A stretch of DNA of 34,414 nt from Phycisphaerae bacterium (GTDB lineage: Bacteria; Planctomycetota; Phycisphaerae; SM23-33), in NCBI GenBank assembly GCA_018335035.1, contig JAGXKT010000025.1, positions 1 to 34,414 of the forward strand, in the 5' to 3' direction. Within the stretch, counting starts at the first letter, position 1. The number at the start of each line of letters is the position of its first letter. A program made the position numbers and the translations under genes. The notes below the pieces were generated by a model. The model had not been told where the DNA came from and ran no database searches. It worked only from the letters and a program-made list of their open reading frames with translations. Positions 15,025 through 23,196 of the stretch are shown here, one piece after another.

Positions 15025-16074
15025 TCAATCGCGTTGAATGACGTCCAGCCCCTCACGGTCGCTGAGGCGTCCGTCCCAGCGGTGTGTCTTGATGGACTCG
15101 ACAACCTGGCGTGCGGCACGGACGGCCGCAAGCCCCTCCCGGGCCGTCACGACCGGCTCGTCGCCATCGATGACGGTCCGGCGCAGCGCCTCGGCCTGGC
15201 GGCGTAGCGGCTCGGTGGAGTCGTCGACGACCAGCTCCTCGACCTTCAGCAGCTTGGTGTAATCCACGGTTTCGGCCAGTTCGGCCAGGTCTTCGACGTT
15301 CGTATCGCGTGCCATCTGGATCAGGTCCAGGTTCTGGCTCTTGTGGACGACGAGCCCGACCTTCTTGCCGTAATCAACCGACAGGTACGCCTCCTCGGAA
15401 AAGATGCGCATCTTCCGTTCGGTCTTGATCGCCAGCCGACTGGCGGTGAGGTTCGCCACGCAGCCGTTGTCGAACGTCAGCCGGGCATTGCAGATGTCCT
15501 CGTGCTCGCCGATGACGTTGACGCCGATGGCGCGGACGCTTTCGAGTCCTCCGCGCGTGAGCATCCCCACCAGGTCGATGTCGTGAATCATCATGTCAAG
15601 CACGACGCCCACGTCCGCCGAACGAAACGTAAACGGGCTGATCCGGTGGGCCTCGATGAACTTCGGGCGGATGTCATACTTGCGCAGCGCCGCCACCGCG
15701 GGGTTGAACCGCTCGGTGTGGCCTACCTGCACGCTGGCGCCTGTCTGCCTGGCCAGTTCCAGCAGGGCCTCGCCATCGGCCGGGTCGTCCGTCAGGGGTT
15801 TCTCGATCAGCACGGCTTTTCCGGCCTCGACGAACGGGCGTGCCGCAGTCACGTGTTGGCGCGTGGGCACCGCGATGATGGCCGCATCGGTCAACTCGAC
15901 GGCCTCGGCGGGATCGCCAAGGGCCCGGCAGTCGCGTTGGCGCGCGACAGCTTCGGCGCCCGCGAGGTTCGTGTCCACCACGGCGACCAGGTCGGCATCG
16001 TCCATCTCGCTGAGCACGCGAGCGTGCAGCTTGCCCATCCGCCCAACGCCGACAACGGCAACACGGAAGCTCAT
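15025..16074 (-). CDS. Gfo/Idh/MocA dehydrogenase, candidate GnnA-like UDP-GlcNAc 3-dehydrogenase
   Basis: 349 residues. The N-terminal Rossmann fold (VAVVGVGRMGKLHA) is followed by the family's EKP motif (E91-K92-P93) and VQVGHTERFNPA. The second domain has the catalytic-type D160-x3-H164-D in GVVLDMMIHDID. Enzymes of this group next to lpxA include GnnA, which with aminotransferase GnnB converts UDP-GlcNAc to UDP-GlcNAc3N so that lipid A carries amide-linked acyl chains at position 3 (known from Acidithiobacillus and Leptospira). The start ATG overlaps the lpxA stop (ATGA, 16071-16074), so it is the last gene of the lipid A operon and translationally coupled. GnnB is not in this window, so the GnnA role remains an inference; another UDP-sugar oxidoreductase is possible. 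Confidence 0.85.
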   Translation of the reverse strand: MSFRVAVVGVGRMGKLHARVLSEMDDADLVAVVDTNLAGAEAVARQRDCRALGDPAEAVELTDAAIIAVPTRQHVTAARPFVEAGKAVLIEKPLTDDPADGEALLELARQTGASVQVGHTERFNPAVAALRKYDIRPKFIEAHRISPFTFRSADVGVVLDMMIHDIDLVGMLTRGGLESVRAIGVNVIGEHEDICNARLTFDNGCVANLTASRLAIKTERKMRIFSEEAYLSVDYGKKVGLVVHKSQNLDLIQMARDTNVEDLAELAETVDYTKLLKVEELVVDDSTEPLRRQAEALRRTVIDGDEPVVTAREGLAAVRAARQVVESIKTHRWDGRLSDREGLDVIQRD

Positions 16075-16949
16075 GAAACGTTCCTTTGGATCTTGGCCCA
16101 CTGCTCCGGCGTAAGGTGGTCGCGGGCCTCGGGGGGTATCCTACCGCGGAACACCTCACGATAGCGACCATAAACGCCCTTGAGCGACCGCTGGCAGAAC
16201 CGGCACAACTCCGCGACCTCGCCCTCGACGCCCAGGTTGAACAACTGCTCGATCTTGTTCTGGACGGCGAACTCGTTGTCGAACAGCTCGCCCAACGCAC
16301 GGCGCAGCTCCTTCTGCTCCCAGGTGCTCAGCCCGGCCCGGCGGATGCCGGGCTCGTGGGCGCCGATCACGGTCGGTGGCGCGTTGGGCGCCGCGTGGGA
16401 AAAACGAGTGTAGGGCGGAACGTCCCGCCGGACAGGCGTGCGGGGCGCGACGCAGGCGTACCGGCCGACCGTCACGAAGTGATGCACGCCCGACAGGGCG
16501 CCGATCACCGCCCCGCTCTGGACGCGGATGTGCCCGGCCAGCATGACACTCGGGCCCAGATACACGCCGTCGTCGATGTAGCAGTCATGCGCGACGTGAC
16601 AGCCGTCGGCGAGTTCGTTGTCGTCGCCGATGCGCGTGAGGTACCCGCCGGCCTCGGTGCCGATGTGCGCCGTGACCATCCGTCCGAAGCGGTTGCGGTG
16701 CCCCACCGACAGCACCGTCTCGCCGCCGCCGTACTTGAGATCCTGTGGGGCGGCGCCGAGCACGCAGCCCTCGGCGAGAACGTTGTCCGAGCCGATGGTC
16801 GTCCGCCCGGTGATGCACACGCGCCGCTCCAGTCGCGTCCGCGGGCCGATCGTCACGTGCGGGCCGATCACGCAAAACGGGCCGATGGACGCGTCCGGCG
16901 CCACCCGCGCCGACGGATCGATCTCGCGGATGACGGTCAGCTCAGTCAT
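16071..16949 (-). CDS. lpxA: UDP-sugar acyltransferase LpxA with altered C-terminus
   Basis: 292 residues from the ATG at 16949, which has GGAG at good spacing and overlaps the previous stop (ATGACTGA). Left-handed beta-helix hexapeptide repeats fill about 10-175. LpxA landmarks are present: QDLKY (70-74) and HVAHDC with the catalytic-type His at 121. The C-terminal part departs from the family: the usual GVNxEGLKRRGF is replaced by VIGAHEPGIRRAGL, a helical region follows, and a basic tail FCQRSLKGVYGRYREVFRGR with additional residues extends the protein beyond the usual 255-265. It transfers an R-3-hydroxyacyl group from ACP to the 3-position of UDP-GlcNAc, or to the 3-amine if the neighbouring dehydrogenase makes UDP-GlcNAc3N. 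Confidence 0.85.
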   Translation of the reverse strand: MTELTVIREIDPSARVAPDASIGPFCVIGPHVTIGPRTRLERRVCITGRTTIGSDNVLAEGCVLGAAPQDLKYGGGETVLSVGHRNRFGRMVTAHIGTEAGGYLTRIGDDNELADGCHVAHDCYIDDGVYLGPSVMLAGHIRVQSGAVIGALSGVHHFVTVGRYACVAPRTPVRRDVPPYTRFSHAAPNAPPTVIGAHEPGIRRAGLSTWEQKELRRALGELFDNEFAVQNKIEQLFNLGVEGEVAELCRFCQRSLKGVYGRYREVFRGRIPPEARDHLTPEQWAKIQRNVS

Positions 16950-17703
16950 CGGCGTCTCCATCGCCGTCACCGGCCGCCTCGACGGCGCGCCGCACGTGCG
17001 GGTTGAGGTCGTCGCGTTTCAGCAGGCGCGCCACGGCCTGCGGCGCTGCTCGCCCGCTCGTGCCGTTGTACATCTGCCGGAAGGCGTCCTTCAGCGCGCG
17101 GATGTCCCGATCGCCGAACCCGCAGCGCCGCAGGTTCTCGGCGTTGACGCCGCGAACCCGGACCGGGTCGCCCTCGACGATGGCGAACGGCGGCACGTCG
17201 CGCGTGACGCTGGCGTAGCCGTTGACGAACGTGTACGCCCCGACGCGCACGGAATCCGCGATGACGGGAAAGGCGCTGGTACGGACGTAGTCCTCCACCG
17301 TCGCGCCGGCGCCGATGTGCGTGCAGTTGGCGAAGATGCCGTGGTCTCCCACCGTTGCCCCGGCGCCGATGACCGACCCGATCATCACGAGGTTGTCTGA
17401 ACCGATCCGCGTGGCGCGCTTGCCGCCGGCGCAGACCGTCACGTGCTCGCGAATCGCGCACGCCTCGCCGATCTCGCACGCGCCGTCATCCTGCCCGCCC
17501 GGCGAGGCCCCCACCACCGCCAGCGGGAAGATCTCTGTCCGTTCGCCCAGCGTGGTCCGGCCCGTCACGGTCGCCCCGACGCCGATGACGCACCCGCTTG
17601 CGGCGCGTACGCCCGCTGCGACATACGCGAACGGGCCGACCGTCACGTCCTCGGCCAGCTCGGCTCCGGCGTCCACCAACGCTCGTGGGGAAATAGTCGC
17701 CAT
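16942..17703 (-). CDS. LpxA paralog lacking the catalytic histidine
   Basis: 253 residues, the usual LpxA length. It has hexapeptide repeats from residue 5 to about 175 and a canonical LpxA C-terminal helical start, GVNAENLRRCGF, followed by RDIRALKDAFRQMYNG. Yet where LpxA reads NAHIAHDC, this protein has SVIGAGATVG, so the active-site His is missing. The second His-containing stretch (VHQF in E. coli) reads VIAD. QDLKY is replaced by SPGGQDD. It may be a non-catalytic trimer partner, or an acyl- or acetyltransferase with another substrate. It lies 19 bp after lpxC/fabZ and overlaps the next gene by 8 bp. The ATG at 17703 follows GGAGGAAG. The acidic tail (GDGDGDADD) is unusual. Confidence 0.85.
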   Translation of the reverse strand: MATISPRALVDAGAELAEDVTVGPFAYVAAGVRAASGCVIGVGATVTGRTTLGERTEIFPLAVVGASPGGQDDGACEIGEACAIREHVTVCAGGKRATRIGSDNLVMIGSVIGAGATVGDHGIFANCTHIGAGATVEDYVRTSAFPVIADSVRVGAYTFVNGYASVTRDVPPFAIVEGDPVRVRGVNAENLRRCGFGDRDIRALKDAFRQMYNGTSGRAAPQAVARLLKRDDLNPHVRRAVEAAGDGDGDADD

Positions 17704-17722: not shown

Positions 17723-19039
17723 TCACGCCGGCTCGGCGTCGACGAGCATAAACTTGATCTCGGCCTCGGCGACGACGTCGCCGTCGACGCGGGCGCGGCA
17801 CGCGCAGTGCCCCGTCCGCGGGCGAACGCGAACCGCCTCGGCCTCCAGGTACATGCGATCCCCGGGATGGACCGGACGCCGCATCTTCACGCGATCCATG
17901 CTCAACAGCACGGCCACCTTCCCGGCGTGCTCCAGCCGGCGGCTCAGCAGGATACCCGACATCTGCGCCATTGCCTCCAGAATCATCACGCCGGGCATGA
18001 TCGGCTGGCCCGGGTAATGCCCCTGGAAGTACGGCTCATTGATGGTCACGTTCTTGATGCCCACCGCCCGCTCATCGCCCTCGGTCTCCACGATGCGATC
18101 GACCATCAGGAACGGATAGCGATGCGGCAACAGCCGCATCACCCCGCGAATGTCCAAAACCGGTTCAGCACGGTCGGCGGAGCTCTCGCCCCCGCCGGAC
18201 GCCTCACGCAACCGCCGCACAAGCTCGTGGTTCATCCGGTGCCCGCTGCGACTGGCCAGGATGCGCCCCTCCAGGCGCCGCCCCAGCAGCGCCAGATCGC
18301 CGATCAGGTCGCAGAGCTTGTGGCGCACGTGCTCGTCCGAGAAACGCAGCTCGTTGTCCACGGGCCCCTCGTCGTCCATCACCAGCAACTGCGTGGCGTC
18401 CAGATGCCCGCCGTAGCCCTGGGAGCGAAACGCGGCCGCCTCATCCGCCAGCAGAAATGTCCGCGCCGGTGCGATCTGACCGGCGTAGTCGTCGCGATCC
18501 AGGGCGAACGCTCGCACCTGCCGCCCGATGCTGGGCACGCCCGCGTAGTCCAGATCGTACAGCAGGTCCAACTGCCCCTCCACACCCGGAAGCGCCGAGA
18601 GTGTCGCCTCACCGGACGAAACGGTCACCGGCTCCTCGACGACCTCCACGACGCGCTCGGCCGCCTGCTCCTCAAGCCCGACCTCGCCGATGGCGTCGGT
18701 GAACAGCCGCGCCGAGCCGTCATCGCTCGGCGGCTCGGGGGCGTTCATCTCGATACAGGCGTTGTCCACGCCCAGCCCCCACACGGCCGAGAGGACGTGC
18801 TCGACGGTCTCGACCGTCGCCTCCCCGGCGGCCAGCACTGTCCGGCGCGTTTCGCTCCGCGTCAGTCGGTTGATATCGCACGCAACCCGCGGGGCGCCGT
18901 CCAGGTCCGTTCGCACGAACACCAGGCCGGCGTCCGCCTCTGCCGGTACGATGCGCAAGCGGCACAGGCGCCCGCCGAACAGGCCCCGCCCCTCGACAAC
19001 CACGGGCCGCCTAACCGTCTTCTGAGAAGTCACGGGCAT
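17723..19039 (-). CDS. lpxC: bifunctional LpxC deacetylase / FabZ dehydratase fusion
   Basis: 438 residues. Residues 1-280 are LpxC: TVEHVLSAVWGLGVDN gives E80 and zinc ligand H81, HVRHKLCDLIGDL gives H240 and D244, and SGHRMNHE gives H267. Residues about 295-438 are FabZ: LLPHRYPFLMVDR, GHYPGQPIMPG with catalytic H341, and LEAMAQ with E355. LpxC removes the N-acetyl group of acylated UDP-GlcNAc, the committed step of lipid A synthesis; FabZ dehydrates 3-hydroxyacyl-ACP and so competes for the acyl donor of LpxA and LpxD. This fusion is known from Bacteroidetes and Chlorobi. The N-terminus from the ATG at 19039 aligns with LpxC (SQKTVRRPVVVEGRGLFGG), which implies a 29-bp overlap with lpxD. 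Confidence 0.95.
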   Translation of the reverse strand: MPVTSQKTVRRPVVVEGRGLFGGRLCRLRIVPAEADAGLVFVRTDLDGAPRVACDINRLTRSETRRTVLAAGEATVETVEHVLSAVWGLGVDNACIEMNAPEPPSDDGSARLFTDAIGEVGLEEQAAERVVEVVEEPVTVSSGEATLSALPGVEGQLDLLYDLDYAGVPSIGRQVRAFALDRDDYAGQIAPARTFLLADEAAAFRSQGYGGHLDATQLLVMDDEGPVDNELRFSDEHVRHKLCDLIGDLALLGRRLEGRILASRSGHRMNHELVRRLREASGGGESSADRAEPVLDIRGVMRLLPHRYPFLMVDRIVETEGDERAVGIKNVTINEPYFQGHYPGQPIMPGVMILEAMAQMSGILLSRRLEHAGKVAVLLSMDRVKMRRPVHPGDRMYLEAEAVRVRPRTGHCACRARVDGDVVAEAEIKFMLVDAEPA

Positions 19040-20051
19040 TGAGCTTCGTTTCGAGTTGACGAACACGCTTGACCAGCTCCGGCAACTTGTTCCATGCTGC
19101 GACGATGCGTCGATGATCCCGCGCGTCGATGGCCGGTATGCCGGAGACCACCTGCCCGTCGGGCACGTCCGCGGCGACGGCGCAGAACGCCGCCAGGCGC
19201 ACGCCGTCGCCCAGGGCAATGTTGTCGCGCACGCCGGAACTGCCGCCGGCCACGACACCGTCACCCAGCCGCGCGCTGCCGGCGATGCCGACCTGCGCCG
19301 TCAGCAGGCAGCCGCGCCCGATCTGAACGTTGTGTGCAATCTGCACGAGGTTGTCCACTTTCGTACCGGCGCCGATCCGCGTGGAGCCGAATTTTGCCCG
19401 GTCGACGCAACTGCACGCGCCGATCTCCACGTCGTCGTCGATTTCCACGTTGCCGGCGTGAGGCACGCGACGGGGCGCACGGTCGGCGACATAATAGCCG
19501 TAGCCCTCGCTGCCGATAACGCTGTTGGACCCGATACGCACGCGGGTGCCGATCACGCAGCCATGCCGCACGACGGCGCCGGCGTCCAGCCGCGATTCCG
19601 GCCCGATGACCGCCCGCGCGCCAACCACAGCACGGGCCATCAGCACCGCACCGGCGCCGATTGTCGCGCCGGGCGCGACGACCACCCCCGGGCCGACGAT
19701 CGCGTCCGCAGCCACGTCGGCGTCCTCCGCGACCGACGCCGTCGGATCAATGCCCGCCGGGGGAAGCGTCTCCGGTGGCGCCAGCCGCCGCAGCACCTCC
19801 GCCACGGCCGCCTGCACATCGTCCACCTGCACCAGGGGCATCGCAGCCGCGTCGAGCGGTTCGGCGACGATTGCCGCACCCGCGCGCGACTCCCTCAGAC
19901 CAGCGGCGCGCTTGGCGTCGGCGGCGAACGTGACGTCCTCCGGGCCGGCGTCGCCGATGGACGCCACGCCGCGCAACGTCACGCCCGCGTCACCGACGGC
20001 CCTGCCGCCGACCCATTCGGCAATCTGTCGGACTGTGAAGGGTTCGCTCAT
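19011..20051 (-). CDS. lpxD: UDP-3-O-acylglucosamine N-acyltransferase LpxD
   Basis: 346 residues, the usual LpxD length. The uridine-binding N-terminal domain (1-100, with SIGDAGPEDVTFAAD) is followed by a hexapeptide-repeat beta-helix (about 105-310). Its active-site loop contains VIGSEGYGYY, VEIGACSCVDRA and KVDNLVQIAHNVQIG, with catalytic His240. A C-terminal helix (312-340) caps it. LpxD adds the second R-3-hydroxyacyl chain, at the 2-amine, after LpxC. It starts 93 bp after the skp/ompH gene and overlaps lpxC/fabZ by 29 bp, so the two are likely translated in tandem. Confidence 0.95.
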   Translation of the reverse strand: MSEPFTVRQIAEWVGGRAVGDAGVTLRGVASIGDAGPEDVTFAADAKRAAGLRESRAGAAIVAEPLDAAAMPLVQVDDVQAAVAEVLRRLAPPETLPPAGIDPTASVAEDADVAADAIVGPGVVVAPGATIGAGAVLMARAVVGARAVIGPESRLDAGAVVRHGCVIGTRVRIGSNSVIGSEGYGYYVADRAPRRVPHAGNVEIDDDVEIGACSCVDRAKFGSTRIGAGTKVDNLVQIAHNVQIGRGCLLTAQVGIAGSARLGDGVVAGGSSGVRDNIALGDGVRLAAFCAVAADVPDGQVVSGIPAIDARDHRRIVAAWNKLPELVKRVRQLETKLNARDFSEDG

Positions 20052-20144: not shown

Positions 20145-20762
20145 TCATCGGCTTTCTCGCTGGTACGTGGCGTTGACCTGCTTGAGCACGGCGTCGGTCA
20201 AGTCGACACCCTCGTCCGCGTACAACACCGTCCGGCGGGACATCTGCTGGAGGACCTGCTGTATATCACCGCCCTGAAGCCCGCCGCGCTCGACGTGCAG
20301 AATCGCCGACAGGCCACGCCGTTGGGCGACGGCGCCCACCGCGTCGACGATCTCGTCGTACATCTGCCTGGTCATCTGCAAATGCCAGCGCTCCACGCGG
20401 GCTCGCGTGAGCTTCTGCCAGGCGTCGTTCTGCGCCCGCATCTCCTCCAGCTTGAGAAAACGCTTCTCGTACATCTCGCTGCCGCGTTTCCACTGCCCGA
20501 GTTCCTTGGAAAGCTCTGTCTGTTCCTGCGCGCGGCGCTCCGCTTCCTGGCGGATCTTCTGGCGTCGCTTGTCCAGTTCGGCGTTGAGATCCGCTGCGCG
20601 ATCATAATTGGCGTACACTTCGTTGAGGTCGCAGACGCCGATGCCCAGTTCCTCGACCGGTGGCGCAGCGTCCTGCCCGACAGCGGAGGTTACCACCACC
20701 GCGCCGAGAGCCGCCACGGCCAGCCCGAGGATGCCCACGCGTGTCCACTGTGCTGTTGTCAT
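20145..20762 (-). CDS. skp: OmpH/Skp family periplasmic chaperone
   Basis: 205 residues. The signal peptide (about 8-31, hydrophobic core VGILGLAVAALGAVVV, then QDA) is followed by the OmpH strand GIGVCDLNEVYANY. A long charged coiled-coil hairpin (about 55-150, rich in KRRQKIRQEAERRAQEQ) comes next, then a return strand ending in the VDLTDAVLKQVNATY motif. Skp forms a trimeric jellyfish-shaped cage that carries unfolded outer-membrane proteins to BamA. It is slightly longer than E. coli Skp (161). The ATG at 20762 comes one base after the bamA stop (TGA-G-ATG), so the two are translationally coupled; no independent ribosome binding site is evident. Confidence 0.88.
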   Translation of the reverse strand: MTTAQWTRVGILGLAVAALGAVVVTSAVGQDAAPPVEELGIGVCDLNEVYANYDRAADLNAELDKRRQKIRQEAERRAQEQTELSKELGQWKRGSEMYEKRFLKLEEMRAQNDAWQKLTRARVERWHLQMTRQMYDEIVDAVGAVAQRRGLSAILHVERGGLQGGDIQQVLQQMSRRTVLYADEGVDLTDAVLKQVNATYQRESR

Positions 20763-20763
20763 C

Positions 20764-23037
20764 TCAGAACCACCATCCAATGCTGAAGCTGAATGCCTGC
20801 GTGTCGTCCGAACCGTGCTTGGCGATCGGAAAGCCCAAGTCCAGCTTGATCGGTACCGGGCCCATTCCCGGCACGGTCCATCGTAGGCCGACGCCGACCG
20901 AGGCACGATACGTACTGATGCTCGCATCCTCTTCCACCGTGCCCGTGTCGAGAAAGACCACGCCGCGAAGCTGCTCGCCGAGAATCGGATACTCGTACTC
21001 GCACCCGGCAAACAGGCGGAAATCGCCGCCGATGGCCTCGTCCGTTCCGGCGCTGCGCGGGCTGATGCCGCGATGCGCGAAGCCGCGCATCCACGCGCTG
21101 CCGCCGCCGAAGTACCGATCGAACACCGGCGCGTCGCCGCAGAGGTACCCGCCCGAAACCCGCGCCTTGAGCACGTGCTTGCGCTCCAGGGCGTCGGTGA
21201 AGACCGTGAAGTAATGACGGTAACCCGCCTCGAGCCGGCCGTAGTTCCAGTCGCCCATTACCTGCTCGTAGCCAAAGCTCAGCCGCCCGCCCGTCGTCGG
21301 ATGCAGTCGGCTGTCCGTCCGATCGCGCACCAGCGAACTGCGAACGGCAAACAGCGTGTGCTGCCCGTCCATAGCGAGAATCTCCGGCGGCGCGCCGCTG
21401 TCAAAATCGTCGATCCGCACGCCTTCGATTCGCGGGGCGATCTCGCCGTACCAGCGATTGGGAAACATGTGCCCGACCGATACCTCGCTGCCGAAGCGGC
21501 GCTCGTCGTAATGATCCCAGACGCGATCGAACAGGTAGGCCTTCGTCCCCAGCGAGTACGGGCGGTCGAACAACATCGGCTCGCGCCAGTCCACGAGGAA
21601 ACGCATCATCTCGGTGCCTGGCTCGGCCGTGATCCGCAACGTCTGCCCCCCGCCGCGCCAACTGTCGCGCTGGAACATCTCGCTGAACGATCGCGGGCCG
21701 TGAAACAGATCAAAATTCCGCTCCACCAGCATGATCGTCCCGACCAGCCCGTTGTCGCTGCCGACCGCGCCGCCGAGGATGATGTGCGCCGTGTCGCGCT
21801 CGGTGAGATCCACCACGACGTCGCGCGTATCGGGCATGTCGCCGACGGTGCGCATCTCGACGGTCTCAAACAGTTGCGTGCCCAGCAACTGCTGGCGCGA
21901 CCGCTCCAGCGCCGTGCTGTCCAGCCGCTGGCGCGGGAAGAACGTCAGGTTCCGCCGGACGACGCTTTCCCGCGTGACGCGATTGCCGCGAATCACAATG
22001 TCGCCCACGTCGTACTGCGCCGATTCGTGAATCGAGAACACCAGATCCACCACGCCCGGTTCCTCGCGGAACACCTGTTGCGCCGTCACGCGCGTCTCGA
22101 TGTAGCCCAGTTGGCCGTACGTGTCCTCCACGCGCCGAACCGCCCGGCGCAGCTTCATCGGCGAAATGTACGCCCCCTCGCGCAGCTCCAGCCGCTCGGC
22201 GAGTTCGTCATCGGCGAAGACCGCGTTGCCCTCGAAGCGAAACGCGCCCACCTGGTACCGCGGACCTTCGTCGATGTGGAAGATGACCTCGGCCTCCTGC
22301 TTGTCCTCGGAGAAGACGATCTCCGGGCCCACCTCGGCCGCCAGAAAGCCGTCCTTGCGGTACATCTCGCGGATGCGCTCGGCGTCAGCGGCGACCTGGG
22401 CCCGATCGAGCCGCCCGGGAATGATCGGCCAGAGACGCTCGGTGGTCTCGATCTTCTGCTTGAGCCACAGCGACGTGAAGAAGCTGTTGCCGTCGAAGAC
22501 GATGTCGTCGACCGTCGTGGAGACGCCCTCGCGGATGCGGTAGACCACCTCGCCGCGGCGCATGACCCGCTCGCGGTCGAAGCTGACGTCCACGTCGTGG
22601 TAGCCCTGCTGGGTGTAGTGGTCGGCCAGGGCCTGCCGCCCGCGCTGCACGGCGGCCACGTCCAGCGCCGCGCCCGTTGCGAACGGCAGGAGCTTCATCA
22701 GTTCAGCGTCGTCGAAGGCGTGATTGCCGAAAATCTGCACGCTGCGGATCACGGGGCGCTCGGTGACCTCGAAGGTCACGACGACGCCCTCATCGGTCTC
22801 CGAACGGCGCGCGACAACGTTCTCGTAGTTGCCGGTTTCGATCAGCCGCCGCTGGTCGGCCTTGACCCGCGCGGCGTCGTACGGCTCGCCCGCTCGCGTC
22901 CGCACGTGGGAGAGGACCTCTTCGTCGGAGATCCGCTCATTGCCCTCGACGCGGACGTCCACTACGTTCGCCGCCACCGCGGCGCCGGCCGTCGCGACCA
23001 TCGCCAACGCCACCGCTGCTGCCCGAATCCGTCCCAT
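20764..23037 (-). CDS. bamA: outer membrane protein assembly factor BamA
   Basis: 757 residues from the ATG at 23037, with a signal peptide (about 5-23, AVALAMVATAGAAVAA). Five POTRA domains cover about 25-400; each shows the beta-alpha-alpha-beta pattern, for example VVDVRVEGNERISDEEVLSHV and YQVGAFRFEGNAVFADDEL. The rest is the 16-stranded barrel. It includes the loop-6 motif WMRGF (R-G-F of the VRGF family signature) and ends in FSFSIGWWF, a typical C-terminal beta-signal with an aromatic final residue. BamA inserts beta-barrel proteins into the outer membrane. It heads the envelope operon, with a consensus promoter about 80 bp upstream. Confidence 0.95.
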   Translation of the reverse strand: MGRIRAAAVALAMVATAGAAVAANVVDVRVEGNERISDEEVLSHVRTRAGEPYDAARVKADQRRLIETGNYENVVARRSETDEGVVVTFEVTERPVIRSVQIFGNHAFDDAELMKLLPFATGAALDVAAVQRGRQALADHYTQQGYHDVDVSFDRERVMRRGEVVYRIREGVSTTVDDIVFDGNSFFTSLWLKQKIETTERLWPIIPGRLDRAQVAADAERIREMYRKDGFLAAEVGPEIVFSEDKQEAEVIFHIDEGPRYQVGAFRFEGNAVFADDELAERLELREGAYISPMKLRRAVRRVEDTYGQLGYIETRVTAQQVFREEPGVVDLVFSIHESAQYDVGDIVIRGNRVTRESVVRRNLTFFPRQRLDSTALERSRQQLLGTQLFETVEMRTVGDMPDTRDVVVDLTERDTAHIILGGAVGSDNGLVGTIMLVERNFDLFHGPRSFSEMFQRDSWRGGGQTLRITAEPGTEMMRFLVDWREPMLFDRPYSLGTKAYLFDRVWDHYDERRFGSEVSVGHMFPNRWYGEIAPRIEGVRIDDFDSGAPPEILAMDGQHTLFAVRSSLVRDRTDSRLHPTTGGRLSFGYEQVMGDWNYGRLEAGYRHYFTVFTDALERKHVLKARVSGGYLCGDAPVFDRYFGGGSAWMRGFAHRGISPRSAGTDEAIGGDFRLFAGCEYEYPILGEQLRGVVFLDTGTVEEDASISTYRASVGVGLRWTVPGMGPVPIKLDLGFPIAKHGSDDTQAFSFSIGWWF

Positions 23038-23119
23038 TGCCGTTCTTCCGATCTCGCCTGTGTCGCTGCCCGTGCCCGCCGGAACAGCGCACCGGCAGGT
23101 GCCAAGGTACTTTTGGCGG

Positions 23120-23148
23120 ACCATACGCGGCGCCCGCGGCGATGTCAA
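23120..23148 (-). promoter_or_regulatory. promoter of the bamA-lpx operon
   Basis: On the minus strand TTGACA (23148-23143, perfect -35), a 17-nt spacer, then TATGGT (23125-23120). Predicted start near 23113, leader about 76 nt. No other comparable promoter was seen within the following seven genes. Confidence 0.75.
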
Positions 23149-23167
23149 TCCTCGTTTGCCCGCCAGG

Positions 23168-23196
23168 TTGCGGCCGGTCGCAATGAACGATACCAT
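23168..23196 (+). promoter_or_regulatory. promoter candidate of the second Gfo/Idh gene
   Basis: TTGCGG (23168-23173), 17-nt spacer, TACCAT (23191-23196); 4/6 in each hexamer. A start near 23203 would lie after the in-frame ATG at 23183 and so favours the GTG at 23243 as the true start. Confidence 0.4.

Follow-up and report, generated by a model that had tools for sequence, protein, structure and literature searches.

Can the active site of a single enzyme be shared out between two neighbouring genes? The question is raised by two LpxA-type open reading frames (ORFs), here called lpxA1 and lpxA2, on a 34,414-nucleotide stretch of DNA from a Phycisphaerae bacterium (assembly GCA_018335035.1, contig JAGXKT010000025.1), the whole of which is referred to below as the window. 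An earlier note, made from the letters alone, had described the two as lying back to back, and its lengths, overlap and coordinates were borne out:

16942..17703, minus strand: lpxA1, LpxA homologue, 253 amino acids; uridine/acyl-chain face kept
16071..16949, minus strand: lpxA2, LpxA homologue, 292 amino acids; catalytic/GlcNAc face kept
16942..16949, minus strand: overlap of the two reading frames, 8 base pairs (bp)

We consider it probable that lpxA1 and lpxA2 encode one obligate heteromeric LpxA-type acyltransferase with composite active sites. The note had also claimed that family hallmarks are divided between the proteins; the division proves stronger than stated, in that whole faces, rather than two motifs, are divided in about 30 genomes.

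Division of the active site

LpxA catalyses the first step of lipid A (endotoxin) synthesis. Known LpxAs are homotrimers with three identical active sites, each lying between two subunits, of which one contributes uridine contacts and the lining of the acyl channel and its neighbour contributes the catalytic His and Asp, the glycine of the oxyanion hole and the contacts to N-acetylglucosamine (GlcNAc). Both window proteins were aligned to Escherichia coli LpxA, whose residue numbering is used throughout; N198 corresponds to N187 of the LpxA1 sequence and H125 to H121 of LpxA2. In the E. coli product complex 2QIA, one subunit binds uracil through N198 and R205, and the other provides Q73, L75, K76, H99, H122, H125 with D126, G143, H144 and Q161 (PMC6286764). 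The substrate complex of Pseudomonas aeruginosa LpxA displays an identical subunit division, in which R200 (E. coli R204), F166 (M170) and I148 (I152) belong to the uridine-binding subunit (PMC7072397). The acyl-channel ruler G173 shares its coil phase with uridine-side positions (173 mod 18 = 11, like N137). Among canonical LpxAs, N198 is asparagine in 54 of 54 rows and R205 is variable.

The catalytic side is gone from LpxA1, namely Q73, D74, K76, H99, H122, H125, G143, H144, H160 and F162. The window's copy carries SVIGAGA at the position of LpxA's AHIAHDC, as had been claimed, and among 31 genomes H125 is retained in three copies, H122 in two, K76 in one, and H160 and Q73 in none. The uridine/acyl face is kept: N198, R93 and E94 are present in all 31 genomes, M118 and N137 in 30, L116 and F170 in 28, G173 in about 28 and R204 in 24, the window's copy being one of the latter and also possessing I134. 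The C-terminal signature that the earlier note took to be intact reads GVNAENLRRCGF; that description holds for N198, E200 and R204 and does not hold for G201 and R205, which are replaced by N and C, respectively.

LpxA2 presents the mirror image. Q73, D74, K76, H122, H125, D126, G143 and H144 are found in 30 of 30 genomes, F162 in 29 and H160 in 28, and the window's copy adds H99 to this catalytic-face set. HVAHDC, QDLKY and the atypical C-terminus were all found in the window as previously described, the C-terminal signature being GAHEPGIRRAGLS, with N198 replaced by H, E200 by P and R205 by A. R204 is retained in 2 of the 30, and M118, I134, F/M170 and G173 are mostly substituted.

LpxA1 alone lacks the dyad H125-D126, the oxyanion G143 and the GlcNAc-binding Q73/K76/H144, and retains uridine-binding N198 and phosphate-binding R204. 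LpxA2 alone has an intact dyad, oxyanion glycine and GlcNAc-binding set, and lacks N198 (N in 3 of 30, H in 25 of 30). Pooled, the two proteins supply every substrate contact of 2QIA other than R205, a position occupied by Cys or Ala here. Positions were also assigned to faces from the literature, a residue being counted as kept if canonical LpxAs allow it at that position. LpxA2 is then the better preserved of the two at all 12 catalytic-face positions, and LpxA1 at 8 of the 11 on the uridine/acyl face (Fisher p = 0.0003). Of the 40 columns that are invariant in canonical LpxAs, 15 are retained only in LpxA2, six only in LpxA1, ten in both and one in neither, the remaining eight being mixed.

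The same division emerges from a comparison that used no list of residues, in which the difference in column entropy between LpxA1 and LpxA2 over residues 108-180 was set against shuffled data. This difference has strong power at the 17-18-residue period of the beta-helix coil (17.3 at period 18 versus 1.5 shuffled; p = 5e-5, permutation). It peaks at residue mod 18 = 17.4, the coil corner on which H125, G143 and Q161 lie; LpxA2 is relaxed at the opposite corner (mod 8, 10 and 11). A chance origin of the split is excluded because the split is conserved across the order.

Both proteins belong to the LpxA family. PF13720 and hexapeptide repeats score above cut-off in each, the best matches by sequence in the PDB are all LpxA, and the PDB structures nearest to the two AlphaFold models are likewise LpxAs, with a close fit for LpxA1 (template modelling [TM] score of 0.89 to the P. 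aeruginosa LpxA-UDP-GlcNAc structure 5dep) and a poorer one for LpxA2 (TM about 0.5-0.75). Against the equivalog cut-offs, LpxA1 falls below both (NF003657, 190.2/226 bits; TIGR01852, 186.8/231 bits) and LpxA2 is above the first (230.8/226) and below the second (208.9/231). LpxA1 does not fall inside a known distinct acyltransferase clade with an active site of its own.

The pair in its gene cluster and among relatives

Together, lpxA1 and lpxA2 fill the lpxA slot of an lpx cluster, between lpxC/fabZ and a gfo/idh gene. The cluster lies on the minus strand in the order bamA, ompH/skp-like, lpxD, lpxC-fabZ fusion, lpxA1, lpxA2, gfo/idh/mocA; besides the pair, it consists of:

20764..23196, minus strand: bamA-like gene, so named on the basis of its translation and cluster position; served as the bamA query for relatives
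20145..21011, minus strand: ompH/skp-like gene (ORF; true start probably downstream)
19011..20051, minus strand: lpxD
17723..19264, minus strand: lpxC-fabZ fusion gene; true start probably downstream of the first start codon of the ORF
15025..16074, minus strand: gfo/idh/mocA oxidoreductase; nearest NCBIfam model UDP-GlcNAc 3-dehydrogenase, with a score under its cut-off

The window's genome (2.74 Mb, 97% complete) also encodes LpxB and LpxK. The two lpxA genes overlap or lie ≤20 bp apart in 24 of 31 genomes. Almost every such cluster in the class has the oxidoreductase gene after lpxA.

Judged by profile scores, the pair is confined to one Phycisphaerae-type order. The LpxA1 profile gives 334-413 bits within the window's order (257 for one copy cut by a contig end), and scores in 261 genomes from elsewhere in the class do not exceed 259. 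With the LpxA2 profile the window scores 492 bits, and 391 further genomes of the phylum stay at or below 267. Outside the order, the canonical LpxAs examined, whether from the class, the wider phylum or further phyla, retain both halves of the active site. No genome of the order has only one of the two genes, where the contig permits judgement. Five (L164, L165, L166, L167 and L170) have the cluster of lpxD, lpxC/fabZ and gfo with both lpxA1 and lpxA2 cleanly missing, and a tree of three flanking proteins indicates two nested joint losses, independent of each other and the minimum number, one of them in the lineage sister to the window's genome. One genome, G005, has the pair twice, on separate contigs (L035 2837-3906, and L064); one of its lpxA2 copies extends over two frames, which may reflect a frameshift, an assembly error or a contaminant.

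Ratios of nonsynonymous to synonymous substitution (dN/dS) between close pairs are 0.12-0.24 for lpxA1, 0.06-0.20 for lpxA2 and 0.08-0.15 for the neighbouring gfo/idh gene; both lpxA genes are under purifying selection. Identity within the order is 36-55% for LpxA1 and 50-66% for LpxA2. By conservation and dN/dS, neither copy is degenerating in relatives.

Two other families of the class, f10 and f11, carry two lpxA genes in tandem at the corresponding place in the operon. In f11 both copies are complete; in f10 (L068 3296-4108, L234 3570-4418, L235 4232-5110, L236 3898-4716 and L237 2708-3517) the first copy is without D74 and K76 only, and these pairs are a possible intermediate of the split. 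LpxA2 clusters with the second tandem gene of f10 and f11 whether active-site columns are included or not, and a duplication inside the order as the source of LpxA1 and LpxA2 is not favoured for that reason. LpxA1 clusters with the first tandem gene on all columns (83/78), a grouping that is gone once the active-site columns are removed. Constraining LpxA1 and LpxA2 to form one clade is disfavoured and not rejected (approximately unbiased test, p = 0.17 and 0.13).

Heteromeric enzyme or two separate proteins

Because neither subunit is predicted to be self-sufficient, a complete site would form only where the uridine face of LpxA1 contacts the catalytic face of LpxA2. Homotrimers of either protein would have no complete site, and in a mixed beta-helix trimer of either 2:1 or 1:2 composition one of the three sites would work. 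We infer this assembly and its stoichiometry, and likewise the reaction, transfer of an R-3-hydroxyacyl chain from acyl carrier protein (ACP) to UDP-GlcNAc or to UDP-2-acetamido-3-amino-2,3-dideoxyglucose (UDP-GlcNAc3N). The earlier suggestion of a hetero-oligomeric acyltransferase is well supported: the losses fall on opposite sides of the interface and are conserved over the order, the two genes are retained or lost as a unit, and selection on each of them is purifying. That this would be the first heteromeric LpxA, its faces divided after duplication (duplication, degeneration and complementation within a single active site) to give an obligate mixed trimer with one working site and activity set by the subunit ratio, seems to us fairly likely.

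Several observations weigh against such an enzyme. LpxA1 departs from the canonical uridine face at I152 (Arg), G201 (Asn) and R205 (Cys), positions at which LpxA2 has allowed residues, and R204 has given way to Ala or Gln in 7 of the 31 LpxA1 copies and is present in the window's own LpxA2. LpxA2 is newly conserved on its supposedly dead face, with His198 and Arg170 each in 25 of 30 genomes, and these residues could form a new pocket instead of marking decay. Finally, many genomes have a complete third LpxA, and for this reason lipid A synthesis need not depend on lpxA1-lpxA2.

The third homologue stands alone on another contig of the window's genome (L171 7505-8314, minus strand; G000:C2), retains both active-site halves and is found in most genomes of the order. 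It adjoins genes for an LpxL-type acyltransferase (PF03279) and a polyprenyl synthetase. At four loci (L174 6304-7467, L175 2951-3865, L176 5331-6536 and L178 6642-7463), the third LpxA has Gly for K76 and Tyr for H144. These are two of the GlcNAc contacts, and their replacement suggests a different acceptor sugar; L174-L176 belong to the genus that has lost the pair. The third LpxA is a candidate for the lipid A enzyme, but could instead act on a different sugar; as to the product of the pair, a lipid A precursor or some other acylated UDP-sugar, the position in the lpx cluster favours lipid A.

The alternative that survives best, although we regard it as unlikely, is that LpxA2 works by itself as a homotrimer whose nucleotide or acceptor pocket has been rebuilt, LpxA1 being a separate non-catalytic homotrimer that, for instance, senses a UDP-sugar or acyl-ACP or regulates LpxA2. 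It would fit the conserved new residues of LpxA2 on the former uridine face (Ala205 in addition to the two above) and of LpxA1 (Arg152, Asn201, Cys205 and Tyr168), and the score of LpxA2, alone of the two, above one equivalog cut-off. However, uridine-face positions 116, 118 and 134 of LpxA2 are variable (2.1-3.4 bits) and have not been re-conserved, and neither the exactly complementary loss of faces nor the constant joint keeping or loss with LpxA2 would be expected of a separate sensor.

We give far less credence to two separate acyltransferases for GlcNAc and GlcNAc3N in the manner of Capnocytophaga canimorsus, with the gfo/idh gene acting as GnnA. That bacterium has two lpxA genes together with gnnA/gnnB and a hybrid GlcN3N-GlcN backbone (PMC3342949), and the oxidoreductase gene next to the pair resembles UDP-GlcNAc 3-dehydrogenase, a likeness that hints at a GlcNAc3N or other 3-keto sugar route. 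Nevertheless, the gene is not tied to the pair, because it remains in the cluster after loss of the pair and also occurs beside a single canonical lpxA in other families. The idea is for the most part refuted, since LpxA1 has lost H125 and other catalytic residues; neither protein alone has a complete site, and the earlier proposal of one enzyme for lipid A and another for a different UDP-sugar is not supported as stated.

That LpxA1 is a decaying duplicate, a pseudogene in progress beside an active LpxA2, would fit its faster evolution and missing catalytic residues, but we reject it as hardly credible on dN/dS and conservation, given that about 30 genomes carry unbroken frames of almost full length, with uridine-face residues that are invariant or nearly so and others that are newly conserved.

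Comparison with known systems and meaning

We know of no heteromeric form of LpxA, and none was found in a search of the open-access literature. The obligate heteromer favoured here resembles LpxA (TIGR01852, NF003657, PF13720) in its left-handed beta-helix with C-terminal helices, in its place in the cluster (lpxD-lpxC/fabZ-lpxA) and in its pooled active-site residues, R205 excepted, but differs in that paralogues would bear one face each. The gamma carbonic anhydrase (gamma-CA)/gamma-CA-like (gamma-CAL) heterotrimer of plant mitochondrial complex I is likewise a beta-helix trimer with an inter-subunit active site and a paralogue without catalytic histidines, and its one conserved site per trimer may serve, by analogy only, as an architectural precedent (PMC7567890). 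It catalyses a different reaction, and gamma-CA still builds a complete site with itself, gamma-CAL having merely lost residues, whereas the losses in LpxA1 and LpxA2 are complementary and neither subunit should be able to complete a site alone. In trypanosomes, the active S-adenosylmethionine decarboxylase complex also requires a dead paralogue; this prozyme is reported to relieve autoinhibition allosterically, in contrast to a partner that would supply substrate-binding residues of the site (PMC5201418). Capnocytophaga canimorsus shares two lpxA genes in one lpx operon, but these are read as two enzymes for two UDP-sugars, and a split into active-site halves is not described there (PMC3342949).

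If the composite enzyme is real, the pair would be an unusually clean natural case of duplicates locked together by complementary loss within a single active site. Possible stages are represented among relatives, from a single lpxA through the complete tandem of f11 and the f10 tandem to the full split in the window's order. The split also makes the evolution of a homomer into an obligate heteromer directly testable, by restoring residues and mixing subunits.
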